Shown here one piece after another: positions 62 to 37,577 of a DNA stretch of 64,000 nucleotides. Below the pieces are notes generated by a model. That model saw only the letters and a program-made list of their open reading frames with translations. It did no database searches and was not told where the DNA came from. A program made the position numbers and the translations under genes. This DNA comes from a bacterium (GTDB taxonomy: Bacteria > Bacillota > Sulfobacillia > UBA995): assembly GCA_031082145.1 (NCBI GenBank), contig JAVHLP010000001.1:211249-275248 (forward strand). Reading direction: 5' to 3'. Position 1 is the first letter of the stretch; every line of letters begins with the position of its first letter.

Positions 62-1453
62 TCACCCACGCCGCGCCACGTGGATGGCTTCTCCCGCCAG
101 GCCGTGGAGTGCTTCCATGAAGGCCTCGGAGAACGTGGGATGAGCGAAACCGCTCTCGGCCAGGTCCTCCGCCCGCGCGTTGAGCTGCAGGGCGATGGCG
201 GCCTGGTGCACGAGGTCGGTGGCCTGGGGCCCGAGGATGTGGCAGCCGAGGAGTCGCCCGCTGGGAGCGTCGGCCACCAGTTTGACCATTCCCTCGGTCT
301 CCCCCGAAGCTACCGCCCGCCCGTTGGCGGCGAAGGAGAAACGAGACACCTTAACCTCGTGCTTCTCCCGGGCCTCGCTCTCCTTCAGGCCCACACTTGC
401 CGCCTCGGGGATGGAGAAAACAGCCGCCGGGACAACCCGGTAGTTCATCTCGCGGGGGCGGCCGAAGATGTTGTCCATGGCGACCAGTCCCTGGGCCGAG
501 GCAACCGAGGCCAGGAAGTAGTCGCCGGTCACGTCACCGATGGCGTAGATACCCGGCACGGACGTCTGCATCCGGGTGTTGACCTCGATGCCGCGCGATG
601 AGTGGGCGATCCCCAGGAGGTCAAGGTCCAACCCGCCCCAGTCGGGCACCCGCCCCATGGCCACCAGGACCTGCTCGGCTCGGAACTCGACCGGCCCCTC
701 CTCCGTCCGCGCCCGGACAACCCGGTAGCCGCCGGCTTCGGCCACGATGTCTTGGATGAACACGCCGGTGCTGATGGTGATGCCCCGGCGGCGCAGGATC
801 GGTAGGAGGCGCTTGCCCAGCTCCTCGTCCACCGGCGGCAGGATGTTGGGGGTCCGCTTGATGCACTGGACGGCGGTGCCAAAGGCGTTGTAGATGCAGG
901 CAAACTCGATGCCTAGCACCCCGCCGCCGATGATCAACATACTCTCAGGTACGCTCTCTGGGGACAAGGCCTGGTCGCTGGAGATCGTCAAGGCCAGGGC
1001 CTCCGGGGGGACGGGAGGGAGTTGTGGCCTCGACCCGGTGGCGATCACCACCTGACGGGCCTCCAGGATCTCCTGACCATCGCCGAGGTCGACCTCCACC
1101 TTCATCCCCGCCCGGAGCCGGGCCCGTCCCCGGTAGACGGCCACCCCGTTGGCCTTGAGGAGATTCGCCACACCGCCCGTCAGCTGGCTAACCGCTTTTT
1201 CCTTGTGGGCCAGGACTCCCTCGAGGTCGAGGTCCACCGGCCCCGTCCGGACCCCGAAAAGGGCAGACTGGCGAGCCTCGGCGTACACCTCGGCGCTCTT
1301 CACCAGGGCCTTGGTGGGAATGCAGCCGCGGTTGAGGCAGCAACCCCCGAGCCGATCCGACTCGACCAGGGCGATCTTGCCCCCCCGTTGGGCTCCCCGG
1401 ATAGCCGCCACGTAACCGCCCGGACCTCCGCCGATCACCACTACATCGTACAA
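62..1453 (-). CDS. lpdA: Dihydrolipoyl dehydrogenase (L-protein)
   Basis: This FAD-dependent disulfide oxidoreductase reoxidises the dihydrolipoyl arm of GcvH and passes the electrons to NAD+. The sequence has the N-terminal FAD dinucleotide motif GGGPGG and the redox pair in GGCCLNRGCIPTK (C39 and C44 from the start used here; the preceding residue, usually Thr, is also Cys). A second nucleotide-binding motif, IIGGGVLGIEFA, lies mid-protein, and the C-terminal interface carries HPTFSEA. The ORF track starts at a GTG inside the Shine-Dalgarno sequence. A TTG at 1453 is preferred because AGGAGG lies 8 bases upstream and the protein then begins MYDVVVIGGG. It is the last visible gene of the gcv/lipoyl operon. 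An AAGGAGG on the minus strand at 10-16 hints at another gene beyond the left edge. Confidence 0.95.
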   Translation of the reverse strand: MYDVVVIGGGPGGYVAAIRGAQRGGKIALVESDRLGGCCLNRGCIPTKALVKSAEVYAEARQSALFGVRTGPVDLDLEGVLAHKEKAVSQLTGGVANLLKANGVAVYRGRARLRAGMKVEVDLGDGQEILEARQVVIATGSRPQLPPVPPEALALTISSDQALSPESVPESMLIIGGGVLGIEFACIYNAFGTAVQCIKRTPNILPPVDEELGKRLLPILRRRGITISTGVFIQDIVAEAGGYRVVRARTEEGPVEFRAEQVLVAMGRVPDWGGLDLDLLGIAHSSRGIEVNTRMQTSVPGIYAIGDVTGDYFLASVASAQGLVAMDNIFGRPREMNYRVVPAAVFSIPEAASVGLKESEAREKHEVKVSRFSFAANGRAVASGETEGMVKLVADAPSGRLLGCHILGPQATDLVHQAAIALQLNARAEDLAESGFAHPTFSEAFMEALHGLAGEAIHVARRG

Positions 1454-1471
1454 GCAGCGCACCTCCTGGCG

Positions 1472-1699
1472 TTAGAATCGGAACGTGGCCCGGTGCCATA
1501 CCGCCAACAGGGCTTGCAGGAATCCGAAGAGAGCGTTTCCCAGGGTCCAGCCCACGACTAAGGCCAGCACCAGGCGCACCAGGCCCCGGGACGATCTGCC
1601 CGGCTGCATAAAGGCGTCCCAGCGCAGGGCGTCCAGGGCAGCCCAGGCCAGGTAAAAGCCCACCGCCACCGCCACCAGGTACAGTAAGCTGAAGTCCAT
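1472..1699 (-). CDS. Small two-helix membrane protein in gcv/lipoyl operon
   Basis: A 75-residue protein starting MDFSLLYLVAVAVGF, with two hydrophobic segments (about residues 4-24 and 42-68) separated by a short polar, basic loop. The start is the ATG at 1699 just after GGAGGTGAGGAG. The longer ORF-track version only adds out-of-frame translation of the upstream gene. It lies between the radical-SAM/acyltransferase fusion and lpdA, with 4- and 18-base gaps, so it is almost certainly cotranscribed. I do not recognise the family and no function can be assigned. Confidence 0.7.
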   Translation of the reverse strand: MDFSLLYLVAVAVGFYLAWAALDALRWDAFMQPGRSSRGLVRLVLALVVGWTLGNALFGFLQALLAVWHRATFRF

Positions 1700-1703
1700 C
1701 TCC

Positions 1704-3476
1704 TCACCTCCTCTCCTGGGCCGGTGTGAGATCGGGAGCGTCGTAGCGCGGTGACAACGACCTGGCCACTTCCAGTTCCTCCGACGTGAGGCTGCCCCGG
1801 CTGAGGATGATGCCGAGACCGCGCGCGAAACCGGCCTCAAAAGCGCGGGCCGCTCGGGCCGGACCAACCGCCTGGCCGAGCAGCTCGCCTACCCCCGCCG
1901 CCCGCCGCCTGAGCCGCTCGGCCGAGACCCCGGGCAGGAGACGGGCCAGCCGTTCCGGCGAGAACTCCAGGAGAAGCGAACCGTGCTGCAGGATAATCCC
2001 CTGCCGGCGCATCTGGGCGCTACCCACCACCTTCCGGCCTGAGACCAGGATCTCGTGGGCTGATGGCACCTCGAAGCAGGCGCTGGAGAGGGTGGCGGGC
2101 CGCGCCGGCACCCGGGCCGGCGCCAGTTCCGGCTCCAGCCCCAGCTCCCGCAAGACTTCGACCAGTCCCTCGGCCAGGCGGCGGTAGGCCGTCAGGATGT
2201 CACCTGGCAGCAGTGCCTGGCTGATGACAACACAGTAGGTCAACTCACGGTCGTGGAAGACGGCCCGGCCCCCGGTCGGCCGGCGCACCAAGTCAACGCC
2301 TTCCCGGCGGCAGGCTTCGCAGTCCACTTCACCTTCCACCGGCTGGCCACGGCCGATCGAGACCGCCGGGGGTGCCCAGGTGTACAGGCGCAGGGTGGGA
2401 GGAGTGCTGCCGCGGGCATGCACTAGGGCCAGAGCCTCGTCCACGGCCATATTCCAGGCGGCCGGACCGGGGCCCGTCTCCACCAGCCGCCACCGCTGGC
2501 CAGGTGACGGCCCGGGTCCCGGCGCCAGCTCGGCCAGGACCGCTCGAACCTCACGGCCGGCCTCCCGCGGGGTCAGCGGCCGGGGGTAGTTATAGAGATC
2601 GCGGCCGGGCCGTTCGTTGTAGTAGGGCCGGTTGCAGTCGGGGCAACCCGAAGTCTGGAACGCCTCGCCGGTGGCCAGGATGCCCGCCAACGACCCGCGG
2701 CTCAACCCGGTGGCGACCAGCCGGCCCGACCGGAAGCGGAAGCGGGAGAAGTCGGCTGCCCCTTCCCGGAGCAGGAAGTGACCCACCTGGAGCCTGCGGT
2801 AGGCGGTCAACGGGGGTCGGGGGCGATCGGCCAGGCGGGTGCCCGCGACCGGCGTGAACGCGAACAAGCCCACCGTCACCCCATCATCGAGCAACCCGGC
2901 AATGGTCTGGAGCATCTCCTGCTCGGACTCCCCCAGGCCCGCCACCAGATGTGTGCTGACGCGGCCGGGAAAAGCCCGGGCGAGCTCCCGTAACCAGCCC
3001 CGGGTGCGCTCCCACCCCGCCTCGCCCTTGACCGAGTGGTAGAGAGTTGAGGTGGCCGCATCCAGAGGCAGGGCAACCCGATCCGCCCCGCCCCGCAGCA
3101 GCCCCGCGGCCCCCTCGAGTCCCAACCCAGTCGCTGCCACGCAGACGGGGAGGGGCAGCCCCCGACCCACAACGGAGGTTGCGGCGGCCACGGCCTCGGG
3201 ACTGTCGGTGAGTTGAAGGCACACCCGGCGGGCGCCGCTCTTGGGAAGCGCGGCCAGTGCCTCCTCCCGGTTCACTTCCGGCCAGGTCACCCGGGACAAG
3301 AGGTCGCCCCGGGCCCGGCTGCTCCGGGCCTGGGGGCAGAAACCGCAGTCCCGGTGGCAACGCGATCCCAGCAGGAAATAGGCGGTGGTGGCCGGCACGT
3401 CGCCGGGTGAGGGTGTCAGGCCCAGCAGGGCGGCCGTTCCGGCCGAGGCCCGCAGGCATCCGTCAGTGCAGGACAC
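1704..3476 (-). CDS. Radical SAM (LipS-like)-LipM-like octanoyltransferase fusion
   Basis: Two enzymes in one 590-residue chain. Residues 1 to about 320 form a radical-SAM domain with the cluster motif CHRDCGFC (C40, C44, C47) and a second Cys pair in SGCPDCNRPYYNERPG that could hold an auxiliary cluster. Residues about 328-590 form a lipoate/octanoyl transferase domain (PF03099 type) with RRPTGGRAVFHD, the SSACFEVPS segment whose Cys (about 467) fits the LipM catalytic cysteine, and GRKVVGSAQMRRQG followed by LQHGSLLL. The GTG start overlaps the upstream gene by 14 bases and has GGAGG 6 bases before it. Position in the gcv operon points to octanoylation of GcvH and sulfur insertion. The LipS1/LipS2 comparison is from family knowledge; which LipS this domain matches is not decided. 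The fusion itself is read directly from an uninterrupted frame. Confidence 0.85.
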   Translation of the reverse strand: MSCTDGCLRASAGTAALLGLTPSPGDVPATTAYFLLGSRCHRDCGFCPQARSSRARGDLLSRVTWPEVNREEALAALPKSGARRVCLQLTDSPEAVAAATSVVGRGLPLPVCVAATGLGLEGAAGLLRGGADRVALPLDAATSTLYHSVKGEAGWERTRGWLRELARAFPGRVSTHLVAGLGESEQEMLQTIAGLLDDGVTVGLFAFTPVAGTRLADRPRPPLTAYRRLQVGHFLLREGAADFSRFRFRSGRLVATGLSRGSLAGILATGEAFQTSGCPDCNRPYYNERPGRDLYNYPRPLTPREAGREVRAVLAELAPGPGPSPGQRWRLVETGPGPAAWNMAVDEALALVHARGSTPPTLRLYTWAPPAVSIGRGQPVEGEVDCEACRREGVDLVRRPTGGRAVFHDRELTYCVVISQALLPGDILTAYRRLAEGLVEVLRELGLEPELAPARVPARPATLSSACFEVPSAHEILVSGRKVVGSAQMRRQGIILQHGSLLLEFSPERLARLLPGVSAERLRRRAAGVGELLGQAVGPARAARAFEAGFARGLGIILSRGSLTSEELEVARSLSPRYDAPDLTPAQERR

Positions 3477-4332
3477 AGCATTCCTCCCCCTGGATGATCT
3501 CCAGGCCCCGTTCCCCGGCTGCGCGGCCGGCCGCCGGGCTGGGGACAGCTATTCCGTTCATGCCTAGCTTCACAGCCAGCTCATCCAGCGCTTGACGGTA
3601 GTGCCCACCTGGACGCATGCAGCCAAGCGTAAGGGGGGTGGTCGGGAACAGCCGGCGGGCCAGGCCCAAGACCGAGCCCACTGCCGCCAGCGGCGGTGGC
3701 TGATGCCCGGCGTAGACCGTACCCGGGGTGGGGCTGAAGACCAGGAAGACGATCTCCTGAGGGCATTCCCCAGCCAGGGCCTCGAGAGCCGCAAGCTCAC
3801 CGCGGATCCGGCCGCCGGACAGGCCCAGGCAGATGTGCGGGACCACCCGCGTGTGCCGGGCCAGAGCCCGGTAGACATCAAGGTAGTCCTCCACCCCAAC
3901 GTCCAATCCCATTACCTCGCGGGCCGTCTCGCGATCACCCACCACGTCAAACGCGACCACGGCGGCGGCGGTGGCCACCTCTTCAGCTCTGTGCAGGTCG
4001 AGCAGGCCTACGTGTAGAACCAGGCGGGCCGATCGGCCCAGTTCTTGGAGCAGGCCGAGCGGCATGGGCACCCTCCCCCGGTGGTCGCAACCCCCGCTCA
4101 CCAGCCAACTTGCCGGAGCGCCGGCGGTTCGGGCCCGGCGGAGAGCCTCGGCGGGGGACAGCATCCCCCGGAGATAGCGACCGCCACAGTGGGCGCAGTT
4201 CAGTTTGCAGTGACCGCCGGTGGTGCTGACCACCCCCGTCCGGGTGGGGCGCGCGAATCGGATGACCGGCGGAAAGCCGGCCCTTCGCACCTCCCACGCC
4301 CGCTCTCCGGCCAGCCCCTCGGCAAGGCTCAA
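3463..4332 (-). CDS. Radical SAM protein, LipS1/LipS2-like lipoyl assembly
   Basis: A 289-residue radical-SAM protein with HCKLNCAHCGG (C42, C46, C49) near the N-terminus, further Cys residues in SGGCDHRG and LGCMRPGG, and a C-terminal pair in GEECCVLH. These could bind an auxiliary Fe-S cluster of the kind sacrificed during sulfur insertion. The true start is the TTG at 4332, 8 bases after AGGAG; the ORF-track extension is a shadow of gcvPB. It follows gcvPB by 56 bases and overlaps the next radical-SAM/acyltransferase gene. It lacks the extra N-terminal Cys motif of classical LipA. The pair therefore resembles the two-protein lipoyl synthases described in archaea and some bacteria. The name is inferred from context and family memory; other radical-SAM roles are possible. 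Confidence 0.78.
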   Translation of the reverse strand: MSLAEGLAGERAWEVRRAGFPPVIRFARPTRTGVVSTTGGHCKLNCAHCGGRYLRGMLSPAEALRRARTAGAPASWLVSGGCDHRGRVPMPLGLLQELGRSARLVLHVGLLDLHRAEEVATAAAVVAFDVVGDRETAREVMGLDVGVEDYLDVYRALARHTRVVPHICLGLSGGRIRGELAALEALAGECPQEIVFLVFSPTPGTVYAGHQPPPLAAVGSVLGLARRLFPTTPLTLGCMRPGGHYRQALDELAVKLGMNGIAVPSPAAGRAAGERGLEIIQGEECCVLH

Positions 4333-4388: not shown

Positions 4389-5867
4389 CTACTCCGGCCG
4401 CCAGCGCAGGTTGGGTTTGCGGGCCGCCAGGGCCTCGTCCAAGCGCTTCACCGGGGTGGTGTGGGGAGCGCCCTTCACCAAGTCCGGATCGCTCTCCGCC
4501 TCCCCGGCGATATGGGCCATGGTCCCGGCAAAGGCATCCAGCGTCTGCCGGCTCTCGGTCTCCGTTGGCTCCACCATCAGGCACTCGGGGACGATCAGGG
4601 GGAAGTAGATGGTGGGGGCATGGAACCCGTAGTCCAGCAGGCGCTTGGCCATGTCCAGGGTGCGGACCCCGTGGCGGTCTTTCTGCCATACGCCGCTGAC
4701 CACACACTCATGCTTGCAGTGGCGGTCATAGGGCAGGTGGAAGTGCTCCGCCAGCTTCCGCATCAGGTAGTTTGCGTTCAGCACGGCGTCCTCGCTTACG
4801 CGGAGCAGGCCTTCAGCGCCCATGCTGCGGATATACGCGTAGGCTTTCACCACCACCAGGAAGTTGCCGTAGAACGACTTCACCCGGCCGATGGAACGGG
4901 GCCGATCATAGGCCAGCCGGTAGCGGTCGCCATCAGCATCCACCAGCGGCGCCGGCAGGTACGGCTCCAGCTTGGCGACCGCACCCACCGGCCCCGAGCC
5001 CGGCCCGCCCCCGCCGTGGGGGGTGGCAAAGGTCTTGTGCAGGTTGAAGTGAACCACGTCGAAGCCCGTGTCGCCCGGCCGGGCGATGCCCATGATGGCG
5101 TTGGCGTTGGCGCCGTCGTAGTACAGCAACCCGCCCTGACTGTGGACGATCTCAGCCACGGTGGCCATGTTCTCGTCAAACAGGCCCAGGGTGTTGGGGT
5201 TGGTCAGCATGAGTCCGGCCACGTCGGGCCCCATCAGCCGCTTGAGGGCCTCAATATCCACTCCTCCCCGGTGATCGGACGGCACCTCAACCGTCTGGTA
5301 GCCGCATACGATCGCACTGGCCGGGTTGGTGCCGTGGGCCGAGTCGGGAATGAGGATCCGGGTGCGGTTCTCACCCCGGTCGGCGTGGTAAGCCCGGAAC
5401 ATCAGCAATCCGGTCAACTCGCCGTGGGCGCCGGCCGCCGGCTGGAGCGAGACCCGTGACACCCCGCCGATCTCGCAGAGGTATCGCTCCATGCGATAGA
5501 GCAGTTCCAGGGCACCCTGGACCAATTCCTCGGGGAAGTAGGGATGAACTCCTGCCAGGCCGGGGAGGGACGCCATGTCCTCGTTGACCTTGGGGTTATA
5601 CTTCATGGTGCAGGACCCCAGGGGGTAGAAGCCGATATCCACCCCGTGCTGGATCTGGGAGAGTCGGGTGAAGTGGCGGACCACGTCCACCTCACTCACT
5701 TCCGGTAGTTCGGGCGCGGTCCGGCGCAGGGCTCCGGCGGGCAGGCATTCCTCCACCGGCCGGTCGGGTACGTCCAGAGCGGGCAGGGAGTAGGCGATCC
5801 GTCCCGGCGAGCTCATCTCGAAGATGAGCGGTTCCGGTCGCCGGCCGGCCTCGAGTTGACTCGTCAA
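4389..5867 (-). CDS. gcvPB: Glycine dehydrogenase (decarboxylating) subunit 2
   Basis: The PLP-binding half of the split P-protein of the glycine cleavage system. It decarboxylates glycine and transfers the aminomethyl group to lipoyl-GcvH. The PLP lysine is K278 in [17 protein letters not shown], the family's glycine-rich signature, and SCTMKYNPK lies near residue 85. The length (492 residues) is normal. Translation starts at a TTG whose bases overlap the gcvPA stop (TTGA), indicating coupling. The C-terminus is intact and followed by the first radical-SAM gene. Confidence 0.97.
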
Positions 5868-7219
5868 CGCAATCCCCCCATTCCGGCAACCAGCCGATCA
5901 ATGTCCTGCCGGGTCCGTTTCTCGGTCACGGCTACCAGAAGCGAGTCCTGGAGCTCAGGATACCAGCGGCCAAGCTCAACGCCGCCGACTATCTTGTCCG
6001 CCAGCAACGTCGAGTTCACCCGTTCAACGGGGACAGGAGACCGGACGGCGAACTCCCGGAAGAATGGACCGGCGAAAGCCAGGGGGTACCCGGCAGGTTC
6101 CAGTTGCTCCTGGGCGTAACAGGCCTTCTTGAGGCACTGCGTTGCCACCTCGCGAACTCCTTGCTTGCCCATGAGACACAGGTACACCGTGGCGGCCAGG
6201 GCGCAGAGGGCCTCGTTGGAGCAGATGTTGGAGGTCGCCTTCTCGCGCCGTATGTGCTGCTCTCGCGTCTGCAAGGTGAGCACGAAGCCGCGCTTCCCGT
6301 CGGCATCCAGCGTCATGCCCGCGATACGGCCGGGCATGCGACGGGTGAGCTTCCCTGTCGCGGCGAAGAAGCCAAGGTGGGGGCCGCCAAACCCGAGGGG
6401 CACACCCAGGGGCTGGCCTTCGCCGACCGCCAGGTCGGCGCCGTATTCGCCAGGAGGCTTGAGAACCCCTAAGGAAATGGGGTCGACGCAGGCGACGAAG
6501 TGGGCGCCAGCGGCGTGGGCGGCCTCACCCAGGGCGTCCATGTCCTCCACGCAGCCAAAGAAGTTGGGCTGCTGTATGATGACGCACGCCGTACTGCTGT
6601 CCAAAGCCTTGCGGAGCCGGTCAGGAGGGGTAACCCCGCCCTCGGTCGGGATCTCCGCCACCGCCAGTCCCGGCCCTCTTGCGTAAGTGTTCAAGGTCTC
6701 CCGGTACTCGGGGTGAAGGGCGGACGAGACGACGACCCGCCGCCGCCCGGTCAGCGTCTGGGAACTGATGATGGCCGCTTCGGCCGCCGCCGTGGCCCCG
6801 TCGTACATGGAGGCGTTAGCTACCTCCATGCCGGTCAACTCGCAGATCAGCGTCTGATACTCGTAGATCGCCTGCAGCACGGCCTGGCTAACTTCGGGCT
6901 GATAGGGCGTGTAGGCGGTGTAGAACTCCGCCCGGCCGGTGATGTGGCTCACCACGCTGGGGATGAAGTGGTCGTAGGCCCCCGCTCCCCTGAAGGTCAC
7001 GTATTCGTCGACGGTTGCGTTCCGCCCCGCCAGGGCGGCCATGTGGCGAACCAGTTCCAGCTCGGACATTGGCGCCGGCAGTTCCAACTTTCCCTTGAAG
7101 CGGACGCGGTCGGGGATGTCCGCGAACAGCTCCTCCACCGATCCCAGGCCCAGCGCCTCGAGCATCTGACGGCGGTCGGCAGCGGTGTTGGGCAGATAAC
7201 GGTGCCCGGCACCCATCAC
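5864..7219 (-). CDS. gcvPA: Glycine dehydrogenase (decarboxylating) subunit 1
   Basis: The other half of the split P-protein, which pairs with GcvPB. It is 451 residues of usual length, with the N-terminal [14 protein letters not shown] segment and the conserved [23 protein letters not shown] region (here [19 protein letters not shown]). Two start codons are adjacent, GTG at 7219 and ATG at 7216, and the GTG overlaps the gcvH stop as GTGA. The GGGGGAGAAGG upstream can serve either. The split gcvPA/gcvPB form is typical of Firmicutes and many thermophiles. Confidence 0.97.
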
Positions 7220-7611
7220 CCCTTCTCCCCCTCTTCGGCCGCGAAACGGCTGTAGGTCTCCACATCCATGAGGGCGTCCAGTTCAGCGGGATCGGCGAGC
7301 TCCAGCTCGAAGATCCACCCCTCCCCGTGCGGATCGCGGTTGATGAGATCGGGCTCACCTTCGAGCTTCTGGTTTACCGCGACCACACGGCCGCCGGCCG
7401 GGGAATAGCAGTCGGACGCCGCCTTCACCGACTCCACCACGCTGAAGACCTCGCCCCGCTTCAACTGCCTCCCGACCTCGGGCAACTCCACGAAAGTGAT
7501 GTCCCCCAGGTGGTCCTGCGCGTAGTCGGTGAGACCTACTTTGCCCTTGCCGCCCTCGGCGGCGATCCACTCGTGCGTCTTGGTGTACCGGTACCCTGCC
7601 GGATAGGTCAT
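7216..7611 (-). CDS. gcvH: Glycine cleavage system H protein
   Basis: The lipoylated carrier that shuttles the aminomethyl group between P-, T- and L-proteins. The lipoyl lysine is K63 in SVVESVKAASD, and the domain runs over the whole 131 residues, beginning TYPAGYRYTKTHEW. The ORF track starts at a GTG at 7620 overlapping the gcvT stop. The ATG at 7611 is preferred because AGGAGG lies 10 bases before it, against 1 base for the GTG. It is the presumed substrate of the two radical-SAM proteins and the LipM-like domain encoded downstream. Confidence 0.97.
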   Translation of the reverse strand: MTYPAGYRYTKTHEWIAAEGGKGKVGLTDYAQDHLGDITFVELPEVGRQLKRGEVFSVVESVKAASDCYSPAGGRVVAVNQKLEGEPDLINRDPHGEGWIFELELADPAELDALMDVETYSRFAAEEGEKG

Positions 7612-7616
7612 CTCCC

Positions 7617-8732
7617 TCACCCCTCCTTGTTTCTCCGGTAGAATGGCAACCCCACGACCCTCGCCCCGGCCTCGCGGCCTCGGATGTCGACGCCGATCGC
7701 GGTGCCCGGCCGGGCCAGCGCGGGTGGAACATACCCCATCGCGATATGCCGGTCCAGCGTCGGGGCATACGAGCCGCTGGTCACGTAGCCAACCTGGTCT
7801 CCCCGGGCGGTGATGGGGTACCCGGTACGGGGTACGCCACGGTCTACCATCTCCAGGCCGACGAGCGTCAGCCCAATCCCCCGGGTCCGCTGGGCGAGAA
7901 GTGCCTGGCGGCCCACGAAAGCCCCCTTGTCCAGGGCCACGAAGCGATCAAGGCCCGCCTCCAAGGGGGTGCGCCGGTCGTCCAGTTCCTGTCCATAGAG
8001 CGGCATCCCCGCCTCCAAGCGGAGCGTATCCCGGCAGCCCAGCCCGGCCGGCACCAGTCCGTGCTCCTCACCCACCTCCATGATCCGCTCCCACAGAACC
8101 GGGGCATCTTCCGGCCGGCAGTAGAGCTCGAAGCCGTCCTCCCCGGTGTAGCCGGTCCGGGATACGATCGAGCACTCCACCTCGCCCACCGTTACGTTCT
8201 CGTCCGCGCGGTAGTACCCGATCTCAGACAGGTGGGTCCTGGTCAGCCTCTGTAGAATGGCCTGGGAGTTAGGTCCCTGCAGGGCCAACTGCCCGGTGCA
8301 GTCGGACAAGTTGCGCACCTGGGCGCCGGGGTGTTCGCGGGCCAGCCCGCGCAACCACTGGTAGTCCTTCTCGATATTGCCCGCGTTCACCACCGCCAGG
8401 TAACGGTCGGGGGCCAACACGTAGATGAGGATGTCATCCACCACTCCCCCCTCGGCGTTGCACATGGGGGAGTAGACCACCCTCCCCGGCCGGGCCCGCC
8501 CGACGTCGGCGCTAACCGCCCGCTGCAGGAGATCTCGCGCTTGGGGCCCGGTGATCTCGAGCTCGCCCATGTCACTGACATCGAAGAGACCCGCCTCTGA
8601 CCGTACGGCCCGGTGCTCCTGGATGATGCTGCTGAACTGCACGGGCAATGCCCAACCGGCGAAATCAATGATCCGTCCCCCGTACTTCAAGTGCACGTCA
8701 TAGAGGGGGGTCCGCCGCAGTTGATCGCTCAC
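7617..8732 (-). CDS. gcvT: Aminomethyltransferase (T protein)
   Basis: This folate-dependent enzyme takes the aminomethyl group from GcvH, forming methylene-tetrahydrofolate and ammonia. The protein has the LKYGGRIIDFAGWALPVQF N-terminus, DVSDMGELEITGP, and the C-terminal barrel with YPITARGDQVGYVTSG. The ORF track begins at a GTG (8744) directly abutting GGGGAGGAG. The GTG at 8732 gives an 11-base spacing and the start MSDQLRRTPLYD, and is preferred. It is the first gene of the operon, directly after the glycine riboswitch. Confidence 0.96.
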   Translation of the reverse strand: MSDQLRRTPLYDVHLKYGGRIIDFAGWALPVQFSSIIQEHRAVRSEAGLFDVSDMGELEITGPQARDLLQRAVSADVGRARPGRVVYSPMCNAEGGVVDDILIYVLAPDRYLAVVNAGNIEKDYQWLRGLAREHPGAQVRNLSDCTGQLALQGPNSQAILQRLTRTHLSEIGYYRADENVTVGEVECSIVSRTGYTGEDGFELYCRPEDAPVLWERIMEVGEEHGLVPAGLGCRDTLRLEAGMPLYGQELDDRRTPLEAGLDRFVALDKGAFVGRQALLAQRTRGIGLTLVGLEMVDRGVPRTGYPITARGDQVGYVTSGSYAPTLDRHIAMGYVPPALARPGTAIGVDIRGREAGARVVGLPFYRRNKEG

Positions 8733-8756
8733 TCCGCCCAGCACCTCCTCCCCGAA

Positions 8757-8792
8757 CTAAGAGGCAGCGCAGGCCAACGCTACGCTGCCCCT
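8757..8792 (-). promoter_or_regulatory. Expression-platform hairpin between riboswitch and gcvT
   Basis: On the minus strand AGAGGGGCAGCG pairs with CGCTGCCTCTT across a 13-base loop, giving a strong stem just upstream of the gcvT Shine-Dalgarno sequence. Its 5' arm overlaps the GGACAGAGG that closes the second glycine aptamer, so hairpin and aptamer P1 should be mutually exclusive. No U-run follows (the next bases are AGTTCGGGG), so control by exposing or hiding the ribosome site, or factor-dependent termination, fits better than a simple intrinsic terminator. Confidence 0.6.
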
Positions 8793-8975
8793 CTGTCCTT
8801 TCACCTGAGAGATCTTCACATTCCCCGTCGGTGACCCTCGTCGAGGTCTCTCCAGAGTTCCGTCCGGCCGCAGTTCTTCTTGCCTGAGAGTTTCGGTGTG
8901 GGATTCAGCCTGCCCCTACCTTGCTCCTTCGGCGCCCGCCCGTGGCGGTGCTCTCCCGCAGCCATCATCCGCAGT
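8788..8975 (-). promoter_or_regulatory. Tandem glycine riboswitch
   Basis: The minus strand shows both aptamer cores. The first runs from GCGGGAGAG through GCGCCGAAGGAGCAAG to GAAACTCTCAGGCAAGAAGA. The second runs from CTCTGGAGAGACC through CACCGACGGGG to ATCTCTCAGGTGAAAGGACA. These match the conserved glycine riboswitch pattern (GGAGAG, CCGAAGGGGCAA, CTCTCAGGCAAAAGGACAG). It leads the gcv/lipoyl operon, so glycine would switch on both the cleavage enzymes and the lipoyl-assembly genes. Confidence 0.93.
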
Positions 8976-37334: not shown

Positions 37335-37345
37335 CGGATTAAAGA

Positions 37346-37487
37346 TGTCTTCGGGGCAGGGTGAGGAGGACAGTCCTCCAATTCCCTACCGGCGGTGATG
37401 CCCCCCCGGGGGGACGAGCCCGTCAGCCCCAGCGGTTGATCCGGTGAGAATCCGGAGCCGACGGTACAGTCCGATTGGGAGGAGACC
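37346..37487 (+). promoter_or_regulatory. FMN riboswitch (RFN element)
   Basis: The conserved RFN blocks are visible in order: GTCTTCGGGGCAGGGTGAG, then TTCCCTACCGGCGGTGAT, GAGCCCGTCAGCC, GGTGAGAATCCGGAGCCGAC, GTACAGTCCG and GGGAGGAGAC closing P1. It senses FMN and should turn off the downstream riboflavin transporter gene. The 90 bases after it include a G/C-rich stretch but no clear U-run terminator. Confidence 0.95.
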
Positions 37488-37577
37488 CCGGCCGCTTGGG
37501 CCGCCACCGGGCACTGTCCGGGAGTCCTCTGTCTTCAGCCCACGCCCCTGTCTCGCGGACCACAGGAGGTCTTGGTC

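Follow-up and report, generated by a model that had tools for sequence, protein, structure and literature searches.

A LipS2-LipM fusion gene and a predicted lipoyl assembly route in a glycine cleavage operon with a tandem glycine riboswitch

The window, the 64,000-nucleotide stretch of bacterial DNA analysed here, contains a glycine cleavage (gcv) operon headed by a glycine riboswitch, in which two radical-SAM genes directly follow gcvPB (Table 1). The original prediction described these two overlapping genes correctly and at the right positions, and the riboswitch that it named is found as two tandem aptamers before gcvT. The first radical-SAM gene, lipS1, overlaps the second, a lipS2-lipM fusion gene, by 14 bases, with GGGGGAGG standing before the GTG start of the fusion. 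We infer that the gcv, lipS1 and lipS2-lipM genes are cotranscribed, lpd probably being the final gene of the operon; since all of these genes lie downstream of a single glycine riboswitch, cofactor synthesis probably accompanies demand for the glycine cleavage system. Between the fusion gene and lpd lies a gene for a small DUF1146-family membrane protein (window 1472-1699, minus strand; 26.2 bits, cut-off 25), which the nearest relative (L081) apparently lacks at that place. The window also carries an FMN riboswitch at 37343-37490 on the plus strand (79.9 bits).

Table 1. Features of the gcv operon and its lipoyl assembly genes, in window coordinates.
Feature	Position	Strand	Evidence
Tandem glycine riboswitch, operon head	8791..8968	-	Aptamers 8968-8861 and 8857-8791; Rfam RF00504, 58.7 and 38.3 bits, gathering score 32
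gcvT, aminomethyltransferase	7617..8744	-	ORF and translation; syntenic gcvT in relatives
gcvH, lipoylation motif ESVKAASD	7216..7620	-	PF01597, single match in genome
gcvPA, glycine decarboxylase subunit 1	5864..7219	-	ORF; synteny in relatives
gcvPB, glycine decarboxylase subunit 2	4389..5867	-	ORF; synteny in relatives
lipS1, predicted radical-SAM lipoyl synthase LipS1, 289 aa, TTG start	3463..4332	-	NF053742
lipS2-lipM fusion gene, 590 aa, GTG start	1704..3476	-	ORF; profile matches; alignment with relatives
Predicted LipS2 domain, residues 8-298	2583..3455	-	NF053743; residue conservation
Linker, residues 299-328, variable, Gly/Pro/Ala-rich	2493..2582	-	No internal start codon
LipM-like octanoyltransferase domain (predicted), residues 329-590	1704..2492	-	PF21948; structural match; Cys and Lys conservation
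lpd, dihydrolipoyl dehydrogenase, GGCCLNRGCIPTK	62..1462	-	PF07992 and PF02852; follows lipM in many relatives

That the radical-SAM pair corresponds to LipS1 and LipS2, as had been proposed, is borne out by profile searches, in which both proteins pass their curated equivalog cut-offs and neither groups with an unrelated family. For LipS1 the margin is narrow (NF053742, 235.0 bits against 230); the LipS2 domain of the fusion scores 315.2 bits against 270 across the full profile (NF053743, positions 1-292 of 292), and also has a CHRDCGFC motif and a match to PF04055 (37 bits, cut-off 29.5). Unrelated radical-SAM functions are ruled out by the curated cut-offs. The fusion falls short of the models for classical LipA (TIGR00510, 26.6 bits, cut-off 310) and for LplA-LipA fusions (NF053790, 57.8 bits, cut-off 800), and the biotin synthase model likewise scores far below its cut-off.

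The residues expected to bind the iron-sulphur clusters are all in place. In LipS1 the radical-SAM CX3CX2C motif is formed by C42, C46 and C49, and the auxiliary-cluster cysteines are C238, C285 and C286, comprising the LGCMRP cysteine and the C-terminal CC, together with H166; in the LipS2 domain the corresponding residues are C40, C44 and C47, then C86, C278 and C281, with H176. These residues are kept in essentially all of the sequences aligned (about 110 for LipS1 and 136 for LipS2), and the cysteines stand at near-identical spacing to the auxiliary-cluster ligands identified by mutation in Thermococcus kodakarensis, which are C230, C276 and C277 in LipS1 and C85, C276 and C279 in LipS2 (PMC9585515). 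In T. kodakarensis, LipS2 makes the 8-mercapto intermediate and LipS1 completes the reaction (PMC9585515). The original pairing can be refined: by homology, the first gene is assigned as LipS1 and the fused gene as LipS2, predicted to be the first to act after octanoyl transfer, so that the fusion would join consecutive steps.

Is the fusion genuine? In relatives the lipS2 and lipM genes overlap or abut, so that a single indel could join them, and an assembly or frameshift artefact of this kind has to be considered. The fusion is, however, open in seven diverged genomes of the order, seven of the seven LipS2-bearing genomes sampled from it, including same-family relatives (G534, G536) and members of a sister family (G530-G533, the G530 copy being cut by a contig end); identity is 60-65% within the family and about 50% between families. 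Nor does an internal start remain: there is no in-frame ATG, GTG or TTG between residues 295 and 331, and hence no plausible separate LipM start upstream of the conserved beginning of that domain. Two further lineages have the fusion, namely G142, from another class of the same phylum, and a Chloroflexota assembly (L106, 5953-7800) whose near relatives keep two genes. Because the fusion recurs in independent assemblies, we rule out an assembly error and regard an artefact of any kind as scarcely credible. The genuine fusion is modelled by AlphaFold2 with a mean pLDDT of 92 and a pTM of 0.82, and even across the linker, residues 299-328, the confidence is fairly high (pLDDT about 85-94 per ten residues). 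No lipS1 lies within the 13 kb surrounding the Chloroflexota fusion.

The C-terminal part of the fusion was expected to be an in-frame LipM-like domain, and it does match the LplA/LipB/LipM fold (PF21948), with 125 bits in the full protein against a cut-off of 27 and 128 bits for residues 329-590 alone. The motifs RRPTGGRAV..HD and SSACFEVPS are both present, with residues of LipM type, and C467 and K482 are the predicted catalytic residues. These two are invariant across 19 aligned bacterial homologues; among 99 homologous domains the lysine is present in all and the cysteine in 93. Four of the six domains that have no cysteine at this position come from Bathyarchaeota loci (L155, L161, L169 and L173), where LplA/LipM-like proteins are encoded near LipS2; given the alignment gap at the catalytic cysteine, these proteins are probably of ligase type.

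Could the fused domain itself be an ATP-dependent ligase of the LplA type, scavenging free octanoate to which LipS2 and LipS1 would then add sulphur, as in Thermococcus? Its closest solved structure is indeed T. acidophilum LplA (Foldseek TM 0.82-0.85 by target; LipB and BH3822 are further matches), and the published LipS1/LipS2 systems are paired mostly with LplAB ligases (PMC10332631). Closeness to LplA is, however, expected in any case, since bacterial LipM-like transferases descend from archaeal LplA (PMC10332631). At the position of the conserved C467, T. acidophilum LplA has no cysteine, and the lipoate-binding motif is GGR in the fused domain as against GGG in LplA. The absence of LplB, for which PF10437 finds no match anywhere in the genome, further favours a LipM-type enzyme over a ligase. 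For the fusion, the LplA_large and LplAB models score far below their cut-offs, and no LipM-specific curated model was matched. A ligase therefore seems unlikely; taking residues, LplB absence and genomic context together, the domain is more likely a LipM-type transferase.

Another candidate is a LipL-like amidotransferase, which would move an octanoyl or lipoyl group from GcvH onto another acceptor. LipL shares its fold with LipM-like domains and is also cysteine-dependent, and 2p5i, a structure of LipL type, is among the structural matches. Such an enzyme would, however, have nothing evident to work with, as neither an E2 nor any other lipoyl acceptor was found in the genome, which also has no other transferase to load GcvH beforehand. 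We consider a LipL role very improbable, and treat the domain as LipM-like in what follows.

The wider genome (G000; 2.34 Mb, 98.3% complete, 34 contigs) was surveyed by family search. The absence of LipA and LipB, predicted from the window, extends to the whole genome, with no match to LipA and a single PF21948 domain, that of the fusion, leaving no second domain of the LplA/LipB/LipM fold. PF21948 does detect LipB, because in relatives with a LipB-LipA fusion it matches the LipB portion, and it is unlikely that lipA was missed through incompleteness of the assembly. There is no 2-oxoacid dehydrogenase E2 (PF00198), a single GcvH (PF01597) and one domain of ACP type; besides GcvH just one Biotin_lipoyl domain was found, and its motif, EAMKM, is that for biotin. 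GcvH is thus probably the only lipoyl protein of the cell. With no LipA, no second acyltransferase and GcvH the sole acceptor found, the LipS1 and LipS2-LipM pair is very probably the cell's entire lipoylation route.

The cluster occurs with neither LipA nor a second acyltransferase in relatives G534, G536, G533, G142, G408-G410, G258, G234, G351, G156 and G036. Other module-bearing genomes keep LipA, among them fused relatives of the sister family (G531, with partial matches in G530 and G532), and in such genomes the fusion is not the sole route. Two genomes of this sister family carry a LipB-LipA fusion of the classical pathway, in G532 (L183:1672-3225) and G530 (L182:2195-3403), adjoining a gene in which E2 and E3 of a 2-oxoacid dehydrogenase are fused. 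The LipS2-LipM fusion adjoins GcvH; the sister family thus has two fused lipoylation modules, each beside a different acceptor. The LipB-LipA reading frame of G532 stops prematurely, with RSSC and then a stop where the usual LipA has RSSY, and the G530 copy is cut at the contig end.

These observations, with protein activities assigned by homology, make it highly likely that the locus encodes the entire route by which the lipoyl cofactor is built on GcvH. The C-terminal LipM-like domain would use its cysteine to carry an octanoyl group, probably donated by acyl carrier protein, onto the lipoyl lysine of GcvH. Sulphur would then be inserted at C8 by the LipS2 domain of the fusion protein, giving 8-mercaptooctanoyl-GcvH, and the separate LipS1 would insert the second sulphur at C6 to give lipoyl-GcvH, an order and chemistry taken over by analogy from the Thermococcus work. 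Octanoyl-GcvH might even be handed directly between the LipM and LipS2 active sites of the fusion, with no release in between. In this tentative reading, to which we give somewhat less than even chances, the fusion would have evolved three or more times and would serve one lipoyl acceptor in this organism.

How does this arrangement compare with known systems? LipS1 and LipS2 are known to stand in for LipA; in some bacteria they occur together with LipM, and they are encoded near GcvH (PMC9585515, PMC10332631). The T. kodakarensis system (PMC9585515) has the same two radical-SAM proteins with every cluster-ligand cysteine, and its two-step insertion of sulphur is the one expected here. Its partner is an LplA/LplB ligase, however, whereas here LipS2 is fused to an acyltransferase that is LipM-like. 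Closer in content are the bacteria and archaea in which LipS1 and LipS2 occur with LipM and no ligase (PMC10332631), the same set of activities with LipM replacing the ligase; these are co-occurring genes, and the main text of that paper does not mention a LipS2-LipM fusion. Bacillus subtilis LipM is a cysteine-dependent transferase of the same type, also with GcvH as acceptor, but stands alone and works with LipA. The LplA-LipA (NF053790) and LipB-LipA (G530, G532) fusions likewise join an acyl-attachment enzyme to a lipoyl synthase, but they contain classical LipA in place of LipS2, have the acyl enzyme at the N-terminus, and join different families. Our searches of the open-access literature turned up no description of a LipS2-LipM or LipB-LipA fusion. 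LipS2-LipM therefore appears to be a new domain architecture in a known pathway, in which only the fusion looks new.

The self-contained module inside the gcv operon, which the original prediction described, is by contrast not special to this genome: across Bacillota, gcv-lipS1-lipS2-lipM operons without the fusion are common. Of 399 genomes sampled from the phylum, 75 have LipS2 above cut-off; for the class the figure is 50 of 154. The usual gene order, in most of the loci examined from dozens of Bacillota, is gcvT-gcvH-gcvPA-gcvPB-lipS1-lipS2-lipM, often followed by lpd; lipS1-lipS2-lipM is found in named cultured species including Sporomusa ovata, Carboxydothermus islandicus and Carboxydocella thermautotrophica, and a riboswitch stands upstream of gcv in most of the fused relatives tested.

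Separate lipS2 and lipM genes are the common state, and the fusion arose independently in the window's order, a second Bacillota lineage and a Chloroflexota. The hypothesis that all LipS2-LipM fusions share one origin is rejected (AU p 3.7e-17). On a tree of LipS2 only, the fusion label needs four changes, with the fusions of the order's two families in separate places; on a concatenated LipS2 and LipM tree it needs three, with the order forming one group at moderate support (SH-aLRT 84.9). We prefer the three origins of the concatenated tree, the count within the order being not firmly settled. LipS1-LipS2 fusions, which join the following pair of steps, are found in G408-G410, G176 and G115, and the LipS2 tree requires three changes of label for them; they are about 640-740 aa long (L087:7726-9945, L088:7260-9431, L089:7388-9583, L041:7516-9444 and L042:6296-8446).

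Finally, when two enzymes become fused repeatedly in evolution, this is evidence that one acts after the other on a shared substrate. The LipS2-LipM fusion supports, from genome data alone, the published order of octanoyl transfer, LipS2 and LipS1, and supports LipM, besides the ligases, as a true bacterial partner of LipS1 and LipS2. The genome is also a simple one, with GcvH probably its sole lipoylated protein. With the first two steps predicted to lie on one polypeptide, the fusion offers a practical subject for structural study of how GcvH moves between active sites.
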